Source: Pseudothermotoga elfii DSM 9442 = NBRC 107921
Lineage (GTDB): Bacteria; Thermotogota; Thermotogae; Thermotogales; DSM-5069
DNA: 64,000 nucleotides
Direction: 5' to 3'
Assembly (NCBI RefSeq): GCF_000504085.1
Contig: NC_022792.1
Location: 682,001-746,000, forward strand
Under the pieces are notes generated by a model that was given only the letters and a program-made list of their open reading frames with translations, was not told the origin of the DNA and did not search any database. The position numbers and the translations under genes are program-made. Of the stretch, positions 39,075 through 46,777 are shown in pieces (the stretch's first letter is position 1; every line of letters begins with the position of its first letter).

Positions 39075-39611
39075 ATGAGATTTTCGGTAATGATTTTTTT
39101 GTTTTTTTCAGTATTTATTTTCGGGAATGTGCTTTACAGCGATTACTTTGGCTATTCTTTATTTGATTCACGAGCATGCTTGATCTGGTCTCCAGAGGAA
39201 ATGACGTTTATGCTTTCGCCAATTGAGAATATTACCGTAATTACTGGAAAAGAGTTTGCAGTTTTAGCGAATATACTCAGGTATTCCAGAATTGAAGTTT
39301 CTGCGAAATTTTCAAAAATGGGCACAACTTTTTACATTCAGGACAGGAAGCCGTTTATTTCGTTTAATCACTTTACTATTGGCTTTGATTTTTCGAAAAA
39401 AAAGAGTGTATTTTTCTCGTCCATACTTGATACATATGGTGTCCTTCCAGATCAGTTTGTGAATCTTGGTACATCATTGAGAATATACGAAGATGGATCG
39501 AGAATTTTAAGATTGATCGCACAAATTAGATTCTGGCGCAGCGGAATAATTGCATCTATTTATTACGGTGGTGATAGGCTTTGCGATGTATCGTTTTATT
39601 TTTCCTTTTAA
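39075..39611 (+). CDS. Small predicted secreted protein, unknown function
   Basis: 178 residues with an N-terminal signal peptide (RFSVMIFLFFSVFIFGNVLYS). The mature part is rich in aromatic, strand-forming segments (FNHFTIGFDFSKKKSVFF, LRLIAQIRFWRSGIIASIYY), as in the secreted protein on the other side of pepV, but I cannot show homology. Its last 31 nt overlap the phosphoesterase gene. Confidence 0.6.
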   Translation: MRFSVMIFLFFSVFIFGNVLYSDYFGYSLFDSRACLIWSPEEMTFMLSPIENITVITGKEFAVLANILRYSRIEVSAKFSKMGTTFYIQDRKPFISFNHFTIGFDFSKKKSVFFSSILDTYGVLPDQFVNLGTSLRIYEDGSRILRLIAQIRFWRSGIIASIYYGGDRLCDVSFYFSF

Positions 39612-40435
39612 TGTTTTTGACTATCTTCGGCAGTAATTTTCAAATAATCTTTACCTCCGATTTGCATGAGACGCTGTTTAAAAATGGTTATGGACCTGCT
39701 GGTCTTGCAGAATATCTGGAAAAAAACGGCAGGGAGAATTTACTTATTCTTGATGCAGGAGATCTGTTTGATTCAAAACTTCAACTGCCATTTTTTGGTG
39801 ATCACAGAAATCATACACTTGATTATATAAAAAAAGTAAAATACGATGCAATGGTACTCGGAAATCACGAGTTCTATTTTTCACGTGAATGGCTCGAAAA
39901 TTACAAGAAAACCAATAAATCTCTCTTAGGTGCAAATGTGAAAGGGCTAAAACCATACGAAATTTTTGTACTCGGTGATCTGAGGATAGCTGTGATCGGG
40001 TTAACCACACCCCAGCATGTAGCCAATCAGGTGGAGCATTATGGCATGTTACCCGAAGATCCGTTAAAGGCCCTGCGAAGAATTGTCAATGATCTTCCAG
40101 AAGTTGATTTCATAATATGCTTGGCTCATTTACAGCATGAACTGGATCGAAAAATAATTGAGTCTTTTCCACAGATCGATTTATTGTTGAGCGGGCATGA
40201 TCACAGAGGACCTGAGCTTGTAAAGATCAATGACAGTTATATTTTTGAGGGCAAGTCACGTGCAGATTCAATCTACACACTAAATGTCAACACTGAAGAA
40301 AAACTCATCACTTATGAACAACTCAAGATACCCACAGCCGATCGTATAACATATGATGATGTGAAAACGGCAGCAGTTATTTCCATAATAATTGGAATTC
40401 TTTCGATGGCGTGGCTTACCTTTAACCCAGAATGA
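39581..40435 (+). CDS. Exported, C-terminally anchored metallophosphoesterase (5'-nucleotidase-like)
   Basis: 284 residues from TTG 39581, preceded by GGTGGTGAT. An N-terminal signal sequence (CIVLFFLLMFLTIFG), then all calcineurin-like metal motifs: FTSDLHE, DAGDLFD, LGNHEF, CLAHLQHE and LSGHDHRG. A hydrophobic segment near the C terminus (AAVISIIIGILSMAWL) should anchor it outside the cytoplasm. It resembles the N-terminal catalytic half of 5'-nucleotidase/UshA without the substrate-specificity domain, so the substrate is unknown. Its stop overlaps the ZIP gene tail to tail by 14 nt. Confidence 0.85.
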   Translation: MRCIVLFFLLMFLTIFGSNFQIIFTSDLHETLFKNGYGPAGLAEYLEKNGRENLLILDAGDLFDSKLQLPFFGDHRNHTLDYIKKVKYDAMVLGNHEFYFSREWLENYKKTNKSLLGANVKGLKPYEIFVLGDLRIAVIGLTTPQHVANQVEHYGMLPEDPLKALRRIVNDLPEVDFIICLAHLQHELDRKIIESFPQIDLLLSGHDHRGPELVKINDSYIFEGKSRADSIYTLNVNTEEKLITYEQLKIPTADRITYDDVKTAAVISIIIGILSMAWLTFNPE

Positions 40436-41162
40436 GGTCAAGTACGGCCATACAACTGAAGCCAATAAGTATCCAGTATGTTACCATTCTTTCCCGACCG
40501 CGGAGATGAGTCTCTGGTATTACCTCGTCGCTTATTACAAAAATCATTGCACCCGCAGCCGTTGCCATGAGATATGGCATCAGTTTCGATGAAATTCCAC
40601 TCAAAATAGCACCAGTTGCTCCACCAAAAATTTCAACCAAGCCTGTGAGAAAACTTACCAGAAACGCTTTCAAAGGTTTATAGCCAGCATTGATCAAAGA
40701 CGCCGCCACTGCTGCACCTTCTGGTATATTCTGTATTCCTATCGCTACAGCTATTGAAAGTGCATGAGGTGTATATCCACCGACGCCAACTGCCATACCT
40801 TCGGGAAAATTGTGTATTGTTATAGCTATGACAAACAACCAGATTGCTTTCAATCTCCTCGTTTCGATACCTTCGTGGCCTTTCATAAAGTGTTCATGGG
40901 GAACTATTTTGTCAATGAGATCAACGATCAAACCACCAATTAAAAAACCAATAACGAATCTGAGAGGTCCTCCAAGTTCCATTGATGGGATTACCAAGCT
41001 AAAAGCGCTTGCTGCTAACATAACCCCAGCAGCAAACCCAAGAGATCCATTTATGAATTTCTCGCTAGCACCTTTTCTAAAAAATAAAAATGGTAATGCT
41101 CCAAGGCCGGTTGAAGCACCTGCCAGAGCACTGTAGATGATTCCTTTCAGAAGTTCACTCAT
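40422..41162 (-). CDS. ZIP-family metal transporter
   Basis: 246 residues with about eight membrane spans. The metal-binding spans contain HNFPEGMAVGVGGY and QNIPEGAAVAASL, and a His-rich loop PHEHFMKGHEG connects spans 3 and 4, as in ZupT/ZIP uptake systems for Zn, Fe or other divalent metals. Starts at ATG 41162 (TTG 41168 also possible) inside the 3' end of the IscU-like gene. As the last gene of the Fe-S assembly operon it may supply iron; that is inference. Confidence 0.88.
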   Translation of the reverse strand: MSELLKGIIYSALAGASTGLGALPFLFFRKGASEKFINGSLGFAAGVMLAASAFSLVIPSMELGGPLRFVIGFLIGGLIVDLIDKIVPHEHFMKGHEGIETRRLKAIWLFVIAITIHNFPEGMAVGVGGYTPHALSIAVAIGIQNIPEGAAVAASLINAGYKPLKAFLVSFLTGLVEIFGGATGAILSGISSKLMPYLMATAAGAMIFVISDEVIPETHLRGRERMVTYWILIGFSCMAVLDLILG

Positions 41163-41514
41163 TTTCAAGTTTTGATAAAGCTTTTTTCAAAGCTTCGACG
41201 GGGGCCATTATGCATTTAAATTCTTTATCGTGAAAATCCATTTCTTGTCTGATGTGCTCCTCATTGATCTCGAGTGCGATATTGATATTCTTGCCGTTGA
41301 CAAGTCTGCAAAGTGCCTCAGAGGCTGCAATAACTCTTGGGCACCCTATGGCTTTGAATGATATATCTTTTATTAGAAAATTTTCCAGTTTTACAAATAT
41401 TCTCACTCTGTCACCATGTTCAGGATACACAACTTCTGCTGTGTGAGTGTAATCTATTTGATTTGCATGCGCTGGGTACATAAAAAGTTGTTTAAATTTT
41501 TCAGAGTAAGTCAT
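41155..41514 (-). CDS. IscU-like protein with first ligand Cys replaced by His
   Basis: 119 residues from ATG 41514, preceded by AGGAG. It aligns by eye with IscU: VVYPEHGDRVRIFVKL corresponds to the scaffold's ACGD loop but has His33 in place of Cys (Asp35 retained), GCPRVIAASEAL matches GCAANIA... with Cys58, and EFKCIMAPVEAL matches the KxHC motif with Cys101 but no His. It may be a divergent scaffold, a carrier or a regulator. The canonical IscU is two genes upstream, with a desulfurase between. Confidence 0.75.
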   Translation of the reverse strand: MTYSEKFKQLFMYPAHANQIDYTHTAEVVYPEHGDRVRIFVKLENFLIKDISFKAIGCPRVIAASEALCRLVNGKNINIALEINEEHIRQEMDFHDKEFKCIMAPVEALKKALSKLENE

Positions 41515-41518
41515 GCTA

Positions 41519-42652
41519 TCACTCCTGTAATTTTCTGAGGCGCTCAACTTCCTCAAGAAGTACCTGGTTGAAATAGTCTATCTCTTCTTCTTCATTGTCG
41601 TAACCCAGTGTTATTCTAACAGCTCCGGTGACTATCCATTCATCCAGCTCCATTGCTTTCAAAACATACGATTGGCTTGAACCATGATGCGAGGAGCATG
41701 CAGATGCTGTTGATACAGATATACCTCTCATATCCAGTGCGGTTGCGAGAGTTTCACCATTAATACCTTTAAAAGAAACATTAATATGTGAGACTATGGT
41801 ATTTTCTCCATTTATGTGATGATTCGGAATTTTTTCTATTGTTTGAAGTATTTTTTCTCTAAATTTTAGCATCTTTTTTTGCCAGAGGTCGTAATTTTTC
41901 TCTATAATTTGTAAAGCTGTTGCCATTCCATGAGCTCCAGGAACATTTTCCGTGCCGCTTCTCAGACCTCTTTCATGGCCTCCACCAAACATTATGGGAT
42001 GAATTTTGATTGATTTGTTTACATACAAAAACCCTGTTCCTTTAGGAGCATAAAATTTGTGACCTGATGCCGATAACATATCAACCAAAGTAGCATCGAT
42101 TTTCAATTTCCCAAGAGCCTGGACGGCATCACTATGAAAAACTATACCATGCTCTCTTGCAATTTTTGAAATTTCATCTATAGGTTGTATGACACCAGTT
42201 TCGTTGTTGACCCACATTATTGATGCCAGGACAGTATTTTTTTTAATTGCTTTTTTAAAATCACTTGCTTTGATATAACCTTCAGAAGATGGTTTCAAGT
42301 ATGTGACCGAATAACCGAGCTTTTCAAGATACTTCATAACTTCGAGAACGGCGGGGTGTTCTATCTCCGTTGTTATCAAGTCACCGCCTTCTGGGAAGTT
42401 TGCTCTCAAAAATCCTATGATTGCTATATTGTCTGCTTCTGTTCCGCCAGATGTGAAGAAAATTTCTTCCGGCAGAACATTTATATGCTTTGCTATTTTT
42501 GAACGTGCACTTTCATAAATCTGCTTTGCCTGCTCACCGTGGGAATGTAAACTTGAAGCATTGCCAAATTGCTCCGTAAAAACCTTGATGACTTCCCGAG
42601 CTACCTCATCGAATACACGTGTGGTTGCTGCATGATCAAGGTAAACTTGCAC
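41519..42652 (-). CDS. Cysteine desulfurase (NifS/IscS family), copy 2
   Basis: 377 residues. PLP enzyme that moves sulfur from cysteine to an active-site Cys persulfide. N-terminal YLDHAATTRVFDEV, TSGGTEADN, PLP-lysine in SASGHKFYAPKG, catalytic Cys loop STASACSSHHGSSQSYVL, where HHGSSQ replaces the usual TSxxLEP. Begins 5 nt after iscU and ends 4 nt before the IscU-like gene start. Together with the other copy it gives two desulfurases in a single operon. Confidence 0.92.
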   Translation of the reverse strand: MQVYLDHAATTRVFDEVAREVIKVFTEQFGNASSLHSHGEQAKQIYESARSKIAKHINVLPEEIFFTSGGTEADNIAIIGFLRANFPEGGDLITTEIEHPAVLEVMKYLEKLGYSVTYLKPSSEGYIKASDFKKAIKKNTVLASIMWVNNETGVIQPIDEISKIAREHGIVFHSDAVQALGKLKIDATLVDMLSASGHKFYAPKGTGFLYVNKSIKIHPIMFGGGHERGLRSGTENVPGAHGMATALQIIEKNYDLWQKKMLKFREKILQTIEKIPNHHINGENTIVSHINVSFKGINGETLATALDMRGISVSTASACSSHHGSSQSYVLKAMELDEWIVTGAVRITLGYDNEEEEIDYFNQVLLEEVERLRKLQE

Positions 42653-42657
42653 TTAAA

Positions 42658-43038
42658 TCACTTCCTTGCAAGTGATTCTTCATATTCTTTTATAGCCTTT
42701 CTCAGAGTGTCCACCGCAAGGTTGCTGCAATGATATTTTACTTGGGGCAAACCGCCAAGTCTTTCAACAATTTCCTTCCAGTTCAACTTTTTGGCTTCTT
42801 CGAGTGTCAAACCTTTGACAACTTCTGTCATCATTGAAGCGGTAGCTATATTCGCCGCGCATCCGTACGATTCAAATTTTATATCTGTAATGCGATCGTC
42901 TTCAACTTTCAGATAAACTGTCATCATATCACCGCATGCAATACTTCCTTCTGTGGCTTCTGCATCGGCATTCTCTATTTTTCCAAGGTTTCTTGGATTT
43001 TTAAAGTGATCCAGTACAAGTTCGGTGTATTTGAGCAT
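42658..43038 (-). CDS. iscU: Fe-S cluster scaffold IscU
   Basis: 126 residues. The three ligand cysteines are at 35 (IACGD), 60 (YGCAANIA) and 104 (KYHCSN), with Asp37 and His103 also present, so it is a fully equipped scaffold on which a [2Fe-2S] cluster is built. ATG start with an AGGAGGTGAT-like site upstream. Located between the two desulfurase genes. Confidence 0.95.
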   Translation of the reverse strand: MLKYTELVLDHFKNPRNLGKIENADAEATEGSIACGDMMTVYLKVEDDRITDIKFESYGCAANIATASMMTEVVKGLTLEEAKKLNWKEIVERLGGLPQVKYHCSNLAVDTLRKAIKEYEESLARK

Positions 43039-43053
43039 ATTATCACCTCCTGA

Positions 43054-44226
43054 TTAAGTATGGCTTTTAATTGGACTTATTTTTCGGAGCCATGATACTA
43101 CCGATTTGAGCTTCTCAACTGTGTAATCTATCTGCTCTTGAGTTGTGAACCTGTCAAATGTAAATCTTATCGACCCGTGGGCCCTTTCATGATCTCCACC
43201 AATTGCCAGGATCGCATAATTCGGTTCGAGTTTTTCTGAGGCACATGCCGAACCTGTGGCAACCTCAACTCCTTCCATACTAAGCCCTAAACTTATCGCT
43301 TCGCCTTCTATGAATGAGAAGCTGAAATTGACATTGTAAGGTGTTCTCGTTTCACCTCTCGGCCCATTCAAAATTACATGATCGATTTCTCTTTCTACCC
43401 TGTTTATAAAATATTCCTGAAGCCTTCTTAACTCTTTTAATGCTTTTTCCATGTTCAAAAAGGAAAGTTCTGCGGCTTTTTTCATTCCCATAATTGCTGG
43501 AATATTTTCTCCCCCAGGTCGTCTTTTATCGAAAGACTCTGCTCCATACATTACAGGCTGGATCTTCGTTCCCTTTTTAATGTATAAAAAACCAACGCCT
43601 TTTGGACCGTGAAATTTATGACCGCTGACACTCATCAAATCACAATTTATTTTTTTAACATCTACAGGAAGTTTGGCATACATTTCTGCTGCATCGGTAT
43701 GAAAATATATTTTATGATCCTGAGATTTTACTATTTTTCCAATTTCTTCAAGCGGCATAATAGAACCGACGAAATGTCCAACAGATATGACACTTATCAT
43801 TATTGTGGAAGGTCTTATAGATTTTTTGAGCTCGTCAAGTTTGACGAATCCCTCTTTGTCAACGGGTATTACGGTAACCTCAAAACCTTCTTTTTTTAGA
43901 GCATCTGCTATGCTCATGATCGAACCGTGTTCCAGTGCGGAAATCACTATGTGATTACCATTTTTTTTGTTTGCCCGTGCTATTCCAAGAAGAGATAAAT
44001 TGTTTGCTTCAGTAGCGCCTGATGTGAAAACTATTTCCTCAGGCGAATCTGCATTGATCGATTTTGCAAAAAACTCTCTTGCGCTAACAAGATCGTCGTA
44101 AATTTCCTCTGCTGATTCATATAATCCATCAGGTCTCGCAAATTTATCGACCATGTACTGTTGTACGACTGCAGCTACCTCTGGCAAAACTCTCGTGGTT
44201 CTGCAATTATCTAAGAAAACCTTCAT
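43054..44226 (-). CDS. Cysteine desulfurase (NifS/IscS family), copy 1
   Basis: 390 residues from ATG 44226 with GAGGAGGTG upstream; the longer frame to 44241 is not needed. PLP-lysine motif SVSGHKFHGPKGVGF and catalytic loop ATGSACASEKLEPNYAI are canonical. Unusually, the N-terminal DNAATT motif reads DNCRTT (Cys8-Arg9). It likely supplies sulfur to iscU directly downstream. Starts 18 nt after the purine nucleoside phosphorylase gene. Confidence 0.92.
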   Translation of the reverse strand: MKVFLDNCRTTRVLPEVAAVVQQYMVDKFARPDGLYESAEEIYDDLVSAREFFAKSINADSPEEIVFTSGATEANNLSLLGIARANKKNGNHIVISALEHGSIMSIADALKKEGFEVTVIPVDKEGFVKLDELKKSIRPSTIMISVISVGHFVGSIMPLEEIGKIVKSQDHKIYFHTDAAEMYAKLPVDVKKINCDLMSVSGHKFHGPKGVGFLYIKKGTKIQPVMYGAESFDKRRPGGENIPAIMGMKKAAELSFLNMEKALKELRRLQEYFINRVEREIDHVILNGPRGETRTPYNVNFSFSFIEGEAISLGLSMEGVEVATGSACASEKLEPNYAILAIGGDHERAHGSIRFTFDRFTTQEQIDYTVEKLKSVVSWLRKISPIKSHT

Positions 44227-44244
44227 TTCACACCTCCTCAATCT

Positions 44245-45066
44245 TCAGAGCTGACGCAGCACACCCATAATAATGCGTGCCATTTTTTCGCCAGCTTTTT
44301 CAGCAACTTCAAGAACTTCCTGAGCTGTTATCGGCCTCAGGTCTTCTGGTACAGCGCGGTCCGTTATTGCTGACAATCCAAGAATCTTGATACCTCCATG
44401 TTTTGCTACTATGACTTCAGGGACAGTAGACATACCAACAGCATCTGCTCCCATGTTTCTAAGCATTTTAAGCTCAGCGGGAGTTTCAAAATTAGGACCG
44501 GCAACTGCTACATACACGCCTTCGTAAAAATCTACTTTTTCTTCCTTAGCTATTTTTTTTGCCAGCTTTATAAGATTTCTGTCGTATGGTTCACTCATAT
44601 CTGGGAACCTTGGTCCCCATTCGTCTATATTCAGACCTCTGAGTGGATTGTCCCCCATCAGGTTGATATGATCACTTATTATCATGGGTTTGCCTATTTC
44701 AAAAATAGGATTCAAACCTCCTGCCGCATTTGTGACAATCAAATATTTCACACCAAGCAACTGCATTACTCTTATAGGAAAAGTCACATCCTTCATTGAA
44801 TATCCCTCGTAATAATGAAATCTTCCATTCATGAGCATAACGCTTTTCTCTTCAAGTTTTCCAAAGAGTAGTTCTCCTTTATGACCAGGAGCTGTTGAAA
44901 TCGGAAAACCAGGAATTTCGGAATAGTTGATTTTGACAGGATTTTGCAGTGCTTCTGAAATTTTTCCAAGCCCGGAACCAAGGATTATTCCAGCTTCAGG
45001 AAGAATTCTTACTTTCTGCCTCAAAAACTCAGCGGCTCTCTCAACTCTCTCAACATATTCCTTCAT
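44245..45066 (-). CDS. punA: Purine nucleoside phosphorylase (trimeric type)
   Basis: 273 residues. It splits inosine/guanosine with phosphate to base plus ribose-1-P. Trimeric-PNP landmarks: GIILGSGLG, PGHKGELLFG (phosphate His), NGRFHYYEGYS, TNAAGGLNP, GPNFETPAELKMLRNMGADAVGMSTVPE and the ITDRAV segment. Oddly placed between sufB and a cysteine desulfurase in the Fe-S operon; it could act with the nucleoside importer at the start of this window. Confidence 0.94.
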   Translation of the reverse strand: MKEYVERVERAAEFLRQKVRILPEAGIILGSGLGKISEALQNPVKINYSEIPGFPISTAPGHKGELLFGKLEEKSVMLMNGRFHYYEGYSMKDVTFPIRVMQLLGVKYLIVTNAAGGLNPIFEIGKPMIISDHINLMGDNPLRGLNIDEWGPRFPDMSEPYDRNLIKLAKKIAKEEKVDFYEGVYVAVAGPNFETPAELKMLRNMGADAVGMSTVPEVIVAKHGGIKILGLSAITDRAVPEDLRPITAQEVLEVAEKAGEKMARIIMGVLRQL

Positions 45067-45083
45067 TACATATACCCCCTTAA

Positions 45084-46043
45084 TTATTTGAGCAATCCGC
45101 TAATAATAAGATCAGTTGCTTCTTCTTCAGAAAGACCCTTACTCATCAGAGTTTGAAGTTGAGCAGCGTTTACACGACCTATTGACGCTTCGTGTGTTAG
45201 TTCAGAAAGATCGTTCAATACCTTCAAGATGGGTACAGTACTTACATCGACATCTTCACCTTTTGTTACCTCGTCACATCTTATATGTGCTTTTGAGTAG
45301 CTACCTATTCCATAGGCTTCATTTACAACTCTAACTTTTGCTTTGTCCAGGGCGACCACTGTGGTTTTGGCAATACCATTTGAATATTTTCCCAACAACC
45401 TCAATTTTTCTCTGATTGCAACTTGGTCATTCTCAATTGCTCTCACTTTTGCCGTGAGATCAGCTGTGGATTGATCGTCAAGTTCAGCTTCCGCATCGAG
45501 AATAAGCTTTCCAACCCGAGTTTTTGTAAGCGTGAAATTGTTTACAAAAAGTCCTTTTTCGGCAATTTTTGCACGTGTAGTAGTTTTAAGGGTAATTGAA
45601 CCGGTATTAGAATGATAATGCTCGTCTGAGTAATACATCTTTGCATTCCTTCCTATTGAAACAATTGAGAGGGCGTCATGTGTAAATTTTTCCGCCCATG
45701 GAAAAGTACAGTGTGCAACAAATTTAACCTGTGAATTCTCCTGAATCTCTATCTCAAAAATAACTCTCTGAATACCTTGTTTTTCCAAATATCCTGTACA
45801 AATGTGAATAGGTGTTTCAAGGACGGTATCTTTTTTCACAACAATTTTTGCTCTGACGCCGTCACTTAACTCCTCTGGAAATATTTCAACCCCTTTTACT
45901 CCATTAAGACCCACTATCTTCCTTCCACTTATTATGAGTGATGCAACCCGTTTGTCTAAAAACTTCGAAACATTTCCTCCTGCTTTTTCATAAGCTTTCA
46001 TCAACATTTCAAACTCTTTTTGTTGTTTTATAGCAGTGCTCAT
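45084..46043 (-). CDS. Minimal SufB/SufD-type Fe-S assembly protein
   Basis: 319 residues from ATG 46043, coupled by ATGA to the SufC-like gene, with GAGGAGGCG upstream. The core SufBD beta-helix is present: FVAHCTFPWAEKFTHDAL, RNAKMYYSDEHYHSN, and the C-terminal RCDEVTKGEDVDVS plus LTHEASIGRVNAAQLQTLMSKGLSEEEA helices. It is shorter than SufB of E. coli (about 495 aa) and no second SufB/D paralogue exists here, so a homodimer with SufC is likely. It matches the short SufB of a two-gene minimal SUF-like system known from Thermotogae and archaea. Confidence 0.88.
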   Translation of the reverse strand: MSTAIKQQKEFEMLMKAYEKAGGNVSKFLDKRVASLIISGRKIVGLNGVKGVEIFPEELSDGVRAKIVVKKDTVLETPIHICTGYLEKQGIQRVIFEIEIQENSQVKFVAHCTFPWAEKFTHDALSIVSIGRNAKMYYSDEHYHSNTGSITLKTTTRAKIAEKGLFVNNFTLTKTRVGKLILDAEAELDDQSTADLTAKVRAIENDQVAIREKLRLLGKYSNGIAKTTVVALDKAKVRVVNEAYGIGSYSKAHIRCDEVTKGEDVDVSTVPILKVLNDLSELTHEASIGRVNAAQLQTLMSKGLSEEEATDLIISGLLK

Positions 46044-46777
46044 AATTGCGCCTCCTCTATGGAGGGTATATTTACATGCATGCATTCGTCACACCTGCTT
46101 TTATAGTAATGAATAACCTTCACAGGATCTCCCTTTGTAAAGACTGTACCATTACATAGCAAATAGGCCTCATCTGCTATCCTGGCAATTTCTTCACGAT
46201 GGGTTATCAATATTACCGTACCTCCATTTTTCGTAATTCGGTGCGCAATTTTTTCAATCATGCCAAGCGACATAATATCAATTCCAGAATCTGGTTCGTC
46301 GAGTATGGCGTATTTCGGATTCAACAACAAAATTGACGCAAGTTCTACTCTTTTTCTCTCGCCACCACTCAAAAGATTATCAACAAATCTGTTGATATAA
46401 AGTTCTGGAGACAGGCCTGTAAGTGTCATTACTTCTTCGAGGTCTTTTGTGCTGATTTTTAATTTTCCACCGAGTGTAAGATATTGTTTTACTGTAAGGC
46501 CCTGGAACCTCACCGGTTCCTGCCAAAGCAGAGTGATACCTTTCGTAGCTCTTTCGCTAATTGAAGAGTTTGTTATGTCCTCGCCGTTAAGCTTTATCTT
46601 GCCAGAAGTGGGTTTATACCCCTCGAGTCCCATTATTGTATATGCCAGGGAAGATTTTCCAACTCCGTTGGATCCAAGAACAGCGTAGATTTTAACCCGA
46701 TCAAATTTTGCATTTATGTTCTTGAGTATGTATTTGCCGTTCTTTTCAAGGCTTACATCTTCAAGCACAAGCATCAT
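46040..46777 (-). CDS. SufC-like ABC ATPase of the Fe-S assembly system
   Basis: 245 residues. Walker A GSNGVGKSS, signature LSGGERKRVELAS, Walker B YAILDEPDSGID with SufC's DSGID. It powers conformational change of the SufB partner. The C terminus carries a C-x2-C pair (Cys229, Cys232 in RCDECMH) not found in E. coli SufC. Two tandem ATGs at 46777 and 46774 follow GGGAGA. First gene of the operon running to the ZIP transporter. Confidence 0.9.
   Translation of the reverse strand: MMLVLEDVSLEKNGKYILKNINAKFDRVKIYAVLGSNGVGKSSLAYTIMGLEGYKPTSGKIKLNGEDITNSSISERATKGITLLWQEPVRFQGLTVKQYLTLGGKLKISTKDLEEVMTLTGLSPELYINRFVDNLLSGGERKRVELASILLLNPKYAILDEPDSGIDIMSLGMIEKIAHRITKNGGTVILITHREEIARIADEAYLLCNGTVFTKGDPVKVIHYYKSRCDECMHVNIPSIEEAQL

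Follow-up and report, generated by a model that had tools for sequence, protein, structure and literature searches.

A Cys-to-His substitution in an IscU paralogue has already been published. The IscU3 protein of Methanosarcina acetivorans (MA3265) carries His32, Asp34, Cys57 and Cys101, is encoded in its own iscS-iscU pair, and is regarded by its authors as possibly non-functional or acting in another role (PMC7585200). The isc3 gene pair is also present in M. barkeri and M. mazei, with the His stated for M. acetivorans only, and the same study gives LPPVK as the chaperone motif of IscU (PMC7585200). In human ISCU2, the C69S, H137A and C130S variants (the last outside the site) gave 70-101% persulfidation, and D71A, C95S and C138S left persulfidation at background; the reaction required Fe (PMC11021402). 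On its own, ISCU2 depends on Cys69 for binding of Fe or Zn, and its N-terminal Tyr has been linked to dimerisation of [1Fe-1S] units (PMC11021402).

We sought to characterize an IscU-like gene of Pseudothermotoga elfii DSM 9442, referred to here as PARA, which lies in a window of 64,000 nucleotides (the whole stretch of DNA analyzed; contig NC_022792.1, positions 682,001 to 746,000) to which all coordinates below refer. A preliminary description had proposed an IscU paralogue with His at the first cluster ligand, a Cys2His site that could bind a different cluster or Zn, and possible regulation of the canonical IscU encoded nearby. Our examination confirmed that PARA is real and conserved, an IscU paralogue poor in ligands and linked to a second cysteine desulfurase.

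Gene organization and predicted fold

PARA lies on the minus strand, where the genes follow in the order SufC, short SufBD-like, phosphorylase-like, NifS1, canonical IscU, NifS2, PARA and ZIP, with the canonical IscU and PARA genes flanking NifS2. The features of the region are as follows.

46040-46777, minus strand: SufC-like ATPase, from family matches
45084-46085, minus strand: short SufBD-like protein (SUFBD_core, 66.9 bits; SmsB model, 70.7 bits against a cut-off of 650)
44245-45066, minus strand: purine-nucleoside phosphorylase-like gene in the operon, named from sequence reading only
43054-44241, minus strand: NifS1 cysteine desulfurase, partner of the canonical IscU
42658-43038, minus strand: canonical IscU with the motifs ACGD, GCAAN and HC (reads IACGD ... 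HC)
41519-42652, minus strand: NifS2 cysteine desulfurase adjoining PARA, stop at 41519-41521
41696-41698, minus strand: catalytic Cys codon of NifS2, followed by Ser-Ser-His-His (His codons 41684-41689)
41522-41526, minus strand: Shine-Dalgarno-like AGGAG, 7 nt upstream of the PARA ATG and within the last NifS2 codons
41155-41514, minus strand: PARA, IscU-like paralogue of 119 aa, start ATG at 41514 (NifU_N match, orthologue alignment, AF2 model)
41416-41418, minus strand: His33 codon CAT, replacing ligand-1 Cys37 of IscU, read from the sequence
41410-41412, minus strand: Asp35 codon (IscU Asp39), invariant in 15/15 orthologues
41341-41343, minus strand: Cys58 codon (IscU Cys63) within the GCPR motif, invariant in 15/15
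41212-41214, minus strand: Cys101 codon (IscU Cys106), invariant in 15/15 and preceded by Lys100 where canonical IscU has His
40422-41168, minus strand: ZIP metal transporter, probably starting at ATG 41162, which overlaps PARA at its 3' end
39581-40435: metallophosphoesterase-like gene beside ZIP, UshA-like by reading only

The assignment to the IscU family made in the preliminary description was borne out by a Pfam NifU_N match over residues 3-116 (67.2 bits; cut-off 22) and by the predicted structure. The AF2 model (9 sequences) had a pLDDT of 91.7 and a pTM of 0.86, Foldseek ranked IscU entries first, and in VIA-align the model matched A. fulgidus IscU from the IscS complex (4eb5_C) with Z 20.1 and rmsd 1.6 over 117 aligned residues. 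The corresponding scores were Z 16.0 to B. subtilis SufU and Z 7.3 to 8.7 to SufE/CsdE. By prediction, PARA has the IscU fold. The sequence also agreed with the ligand pattern first described, with a Cys-to-His change at the first ligand, the Asp kept, Cys58 and Cys101 as the second and third ligands, and no His before the last Cys.

Genome searches found two NifU_N genes in the whole genome, the canonical IscU and PARA, which share 27% identity over 85 aa, and a single SufBD match, the weakly scored short SufBD-like protein. It was also noted that the phosphorylase-like gene stands just ahead of NifS1 in every family locus covering this spot; in one genome of the same family (G057) no SufBD match was found, and the phosphorylase gene is present without an adjoining SufC or SufB. 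The metallophosphoesterase-like gene occurs in the 4 same-genus loci and is absent from the 6 other-genus family loci covering the spot.

Conservation and ligand pattern in Thermotogota

Orthologues were surveyed in 103 Thermotogota genomes, 11 of which form the family of the window itself (f1). A PARA orthologue with His at position 33 was found in 11/11 f1 genomes, by alignment and by codons, and the other 10 f1 orthologues share 63-71% identity with PARA; identities to the orthologues of two Pseudothermotoga MAGs are 69 and 71%. Three loci from the latter comparison seem to coincide with three of the 11 f1 loci and are counted once. Deeper orthologues at 34-41% identity were found in four further Thermotogota genomes (G002, G003, G004 and G006), and in a fifth (G007) the PARA start is visible after NifS2 in a gene that runs into the contig end.

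The ligand-1 Cys was absent from all 15 full orthologues, with His in the 11 f1 sequences and Asp in all four deeper ones; the codons for these residues (CAT/CAC and GAT/GAC) lie one base apart. Asp35, Cys58 and Cys101 were kept in 15/15, and the GCPR motif was common to all. An N-terminal Tyr was also retained throughout (15/15), as it is in SufU-type rows. The residue before the last Cys was K, D, E, T or V, never His (15/15), and the LPPVK chaperone motif before that Cys was absent from 15/15. Altogether, 17 columns were invariant across the 15 full sequences (Y3, S4, F11, P14, Y22, D35, G57, C58, P59, R60, I62, A63, L71, E85, D96, C101 and P105).

The invariance of His33 across Thermotogales, suggested as a check in the preliminary description, held within f1 (11/11) and broke down in the deeper Thermotogota orthologues (0/4). 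Judged from these alignments, His33 is not the defining feature of the PARA group, and a His-ligated cluster as the hallmark of the group was rejected. Because the deeper orthologues have Asp, a special cluster at a Cys2His site cannot be the function of the whole group; such a site may still hold in f1.

In the phylogenetic tree, the PARA sequences fell on one side of a branch (support 100/99) with a long stem of 1.75 changes per column. The Asp-bearing G002 grouped beside f1 (96/86), and with the ligand columns left out these two branches had support of 98/89 and 100/90; the tree program warned of long branches (G002, G006) and few columns, which makes the places of G002 and G006 unsure. Since PARA forms one branch with G002 beside f1, His33 would most simply have arisen from Asp on the stem leading to f1, a direction that we infer from the tree. 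A second, better-scoring NifU_N gene was found in 15/15 PARA carriers. In the 13 carriers aligned (all but G060 and G062), this gene has both the ligand-1 Cys and the His before the last Cys; the scaffold function is therefore covered.

Pairing with NifS2 and the SUF background

The distance from the NifS2 stop to the PARA start ranged from -11 to +13 nt in 14/14 genomes showing both genes, and the G003 sequence begins at a contig edge. The NifS1 and NifS2 rows were cleanly split on the desulfurase tree (100/99 and 100/98). An N-terminal motif with Arg (DNCRTT and similar) was noted in 16/16 NifS1 rows, where NifS2 has DHAATT or DHGATT, and Arg at this position was not found among the most common motifs of other desulfurase groups. 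It is possible that this Arg affects the PLP or substrate site of NifS1.

We then compared the occurrence of PARA with that of SufBD. Among the 16 PARA genomes (the 15 with full orthologues and G007), SufBD matching was limited to one weak hit in 11 (best E 4.8e-27) and absent in 5, while 77 of the other 87 Thermotogota genomes had a SufBD match with E < 1e-60. The 10 exceptions without such a match were G001, G005, G013, G018, G030, G031, G032, G054, G073 and G098, several of which are incomplete. PARA goes with the absence of a strong SufB match, and this is an association by lineage among related genomes, not 103 independent cases.

Ligand-poor IscU proteins outside Thermotogota

A PARA profile was scanned against 390 genomes and viral contigs, and a plasmid collection was also searched. 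No PARA orthologue outside Thermotogota was found in the 390 genomes, where members scored 157-204 bits and the next match 93.1. A GCPR DNA pattern occurred at 71 places in these genomes, 15 of them PARA genes; 30 of the other 56 were examined and gave no PARA-profile match. The plasmid collection yielded 8 records at 28-34% identity (7 annotated NifU or IscU), and the viral contigs scanned with the profile gave no match. With canonical IscU as the query, SufU-like genes were noted near the ends of IMG/VR viral contigs (L119-L123), possibly host flank.

A further 55 profile hits were checked, comprising 15 of the best non-members and 40 picked from the list and hence not a random sample, and 54 of them have CGD. 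The exception was L155, from genome G263. In the phylum of G263, 54 genomes were searched with the L155 protein, of which 46 matched, and the 30 better-matching loci were examined. At 15 of these loci we found an IscU-like protein without the ligand-1 Cys (gap, n = 10; Lys, n = 2; Ser, Gly and Asp, n = 1 each), here called the second lineage. All 15 had lost the following Asp and the last-Cys His and kept the other two Cys, and 14/15 had GCP. A desulfurase lay directly upstream in 12/15, with none in the flank examined for G398, G401 and G402. A second, longer NifU_N match was encountered within about 2.5 kb in 8/15 genomes; in the remaining genomes it lay on a different contig, was about 42 kb distant (G398) or was not found. 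The G263 locus, the only one covered over a longer stretch, carries in turn a desulfurase, the ligand-poor IscU, another desulfurase and a long canonical IscU. Outside this phylum, G335 carries a ligand-poor gene just ahead of a desulfurase-IscU pair, and no second desulfurase was found within 9 kb.

Among 47 further loci, 5 NifU_N proteins lacked CGD (L195, L222, L238, L239 and L241). L195 is the G263 gene again, L222 is ligand-poor, and L238, L239 and L241 keep C-x-D and are of other kinds. Two of these (L239:4561-4935 and L241:4621-4998) are IscU-like proteins without the last Cys (HS or HA in place of HC), and the L239 gene lies directly after a desulfurase-IscU pair. Proteins without ligand-1 Cys and Asp, having GCP or ACP and two Cys, were also observed in further lineages (L164, L170, L175, L222 and others). 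It was additionally noted that some CGD IscUs of deep Thermotogota and of another lineage (L049:2988-3638, L048:3833-4483 and L194:6855-7514) measure about 216-219 aa and are about 90 residues longer C-terminally; M. acetivorans IscU1 is also large, at 24.2 kDa (PMC7585200).

One clade of PARA and the 15 ligand-poor IscUs had an AU p of 0.682, and the same arrangement of their desulfurases an AU p of 0.507. The NifS1-type desulfurases of both lineages grouped with an SH-aLRT of 90, below the program's mark for firm support. Because one clade was neither supported nor rejected for the IscU-like proteins or for the desulfurases, the trees neither show nor reject a common origin of PARA and the second lineage, and the ligand-1 Cys may have been lost once early or repeatedly.

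Candidate roles of PARA

When PARA was compared with human ISCU2, the residues essential for persulfidation aligned with Asp35, Cys58 and Cys101 (kept in 15/15), and the dispensable site residues aligned with positions 33 and 100 (changed in 15/15). Given this agreement, the linkage to NifS2, the missing LPPVK motif and the separate canonical IscU, the best reading is that PARA is a former IscU that acts as a dedicated sulfur acceptor (persulfide carrier) partner of NifS2 and not as a cluster-building scaffold, to which we assign a probability of roughly 0.5. PARA would dock on NifS2 as IscU does on IscS, with a single Fe2+ or Zn2+ bound by Asp35 and Cys58 (and His33 in f1). Cys101 would accept the persulfide of the NifS2 loop Cys, and the sulfur would then be handed on to the canonical IscU or another acceptor.

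Several points weigh against the acceptor role. The ISCU2 data come from the human protein in assays with frataxin, and the Cys residues may be used otherwise in the IscU of bacteria or archaea. In addition, His33 is invariant in f1, which would be unneeded in a mere relic, and PARA keeps the dimerisation-linked N-terminal Tyr in 15/15. Because metal binding by free ISCU2 depends on Cys69, free PARA may carry no metal; alternatively, His33 may stand in for the Cys as a ligand, which could explain the invariance of His33 in f1.

A possible, if rather doubtful, alternative is that PARA is still a scaffold or carrier, holding a [2Fe-2S] or other cluster on His33, Cys58, Cys101 and Asp35 for special clients or low-iron storage, with metal supplied by the adjoining ZIP importer. 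On paper, the two Cys, the Asp and the His would suffice as ligands, His33 is invariant in 11/11 f1 genomes, and M. acetivorans has an IscU paralogue in which His replaces Cys (PMC7585200). The ZIP gene also follows PARA in 10/11 f1 loci (not G056). However, the four deeper orthologues have Asp for His and lack the ZIP neighbor (0/4), and the last-Cys His and the LPPVK motif were lost as well. ZIP-linked metal uptake as a trait of the whole group was rejected, the gene being absent beside PARA in the four deeper loci and G056.

It appears unlikely that PARA is a regulator or decoy that tunes cluster synthesis, either by heterodimerising with the canonical IscU or by occupying NifS1 or NifS2. 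The regulation of canonical IscU raised in the preliminary description would fit the 10/11 f1 genomes in which both genes share a gene cluster (in G056 they are split over contigs), but the gene order points to NifS2, which adjoins PARA in 14/14 genomes. In the G002 draft (about 100 contigs), NifS1-IscU and NifS2-PARA are on different contigs, IscU being followed by opposite-strand genes and NifS2 beginning about 150 nt from the contig end. Moreover, Asp35, Cys58 and Cys101 are retained in 15/15 orthologues, which would not be required of a decoy.

Somewhat less probable again is a SufU-like, Zn-dependent activator of NifS2, with the NifS2 loop His at Cys+3 entering the metal site. This residue was His in 15/15 readable NifS2 sequences (16 rows) and in 0/16 NifS1, 0/32 readable background desulfurases (33 rows), 0/14 from further loci and 0/1 from G018, and, in SufS-SufU, a His from SufS takes the place of one SufU Cys at the Zn (PMC10216065). 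However, the SufS His lies at a helix end, and the SufU acceptor Cys is the one that PARA lacks (PMC10216065). In the second lineage, the Cys+3 His was found in 4/11 desulfurases partnering canonical IscU, as opposed to 0/12 partners of ligand-poor IscU (and 0/5 readable of 8 NifS1-type rows). The NifS2 His is a lineage mark and no proof of a composite metal site; we rejected such a site as a specific feature and kept it as a rival explanation only.

The dN/dS of PARA was 0.026-0.089 (median 0.061; 7/45 pairs usable, from 10 of the 11 f1 genomes), the median lying close to that of NifS2 (0.062; 12/45 pairs usable) and above that of IscU (0.033; 5/28 pairs usable). A decaying, redundant duplicate without function is thus very improbable given these values, the open frame in 11/11 f1 genomes and the 17 invariant columns over 15 sequences, even though the long stem branch, the ligand loss and the view of the M. 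acetivorans authors that IscU3 could be non-functional (PMC7585200) would agree with it.

Implications

An intriguing question is why a minimal Fe-S system needs two desulfurases and two IscU-fold proteins. No publication describing such an IscU paralogue in Thermotogota was found in the open-licence literature; what is new here is a conserved pair of desulfurase and ligand-poor IscU in genomes without a strong SufB match. PARA represents a natural combination mutant in which the two ISCU2-dispensable residues were lost and the three essential ones kept. It therefore bears on whether sulfur acceptance and cluster scaffolding are naturally separable and on the origin of SufU and SufE, and it points to a possible function for further ligand-poor paralogues of IscU, Methanosarcina IscU3 among them.

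We tentatively put forward, as a wider idea that is clearly less probable than the acceptor role itself, that minimal SUF-poor Fe-S systems contain a "second-arm" module in which a separate desulfurase is paired, beside NifS1-IscU, with an IscU stripped of scaffold ligands that serves as a sulfur carrier. The module would have arisen once, in ancient times, for Thermotogota and one or more further bacterial lineages. If true, this module would show a route from scaffold to SufU/SufE-like sulfur acceptor. Its odds are lowered because 3/15 second-lineage ligand-poor genes have no adjoining desulfurase; for the same reason, and because Asp was lost in 15/15, the three-residue logic and the strict pairing do not extend to the second lineage.

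Comparison with known systems

PARA resembles IscU/MisU scaffolds in its predicted fold, its near full-length NifU_N match, its Asp and two Cys ligands and the desulfurase upstream, and differs in the absence of the ligand-1 Cys, the last-Cys His and LPPVK. Against the NCBIfam IscU equivalog TIGR01999, PARA scored 44.7 (cut-off 192.4), and the canonical IscU of the genome also fell short (119.3), so that this score discriminates poorly. Because two defining site residues are missing, PARA is not classed here as a scaffold IscU, and by its sequence it would not qualify as a SufU either. Like SufU, it has the IscU fold without a His before the last Cys, and it would work with a desulfurase and use a scaffold fold for sulfur transfer. 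In contrast, SufU has an insert of 21-23 aa between Cys 2 and Cys 3 and uses the ligand-1 Cys as acceptor (PMC10216065), neither of which PARA has. Its score against NCBIfam SUF_scaf_2 was below the cut-off (35.6 versus 92.5 bits). The likeness to SufE/CsdE consists of a distantly similar fold and the proposed sulfur-acceptor role; the Pfam and NCBIfam hits of PARA, taken to an E value of 1, included no SufE family. SufE is without the IscU metal site.

M. acetivorans IscU3 shares with PARA its status as an IscU paralogue, its own desulfurase pair beside other iscSU pairs and the same Cys-to-His change. IscU3 differs in being 50% identical to E. coli IscU and in keeping LPPGK (PMC7585200), where PARA has no such motif and has GCPR. 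Since IscU3 is closer to E. coli IscU with LPPGK kept and PARA is divergent with GCPR, the two Cys-to-His changes are probably independent, IscU3 being compared by its published description only. Finally, the NifS1-IscU pair, in genomes without a strong SufB match, looks like the minimal IscS-IscU pair of the MIS type (PMC12442378, PMC12192291), which lacks other ISC genes; its neighbors and the weak or absent SufBD would fit such a system. The difference from MIS is that here a second desulfurase and a ligand-poor IscU have been added alongside.
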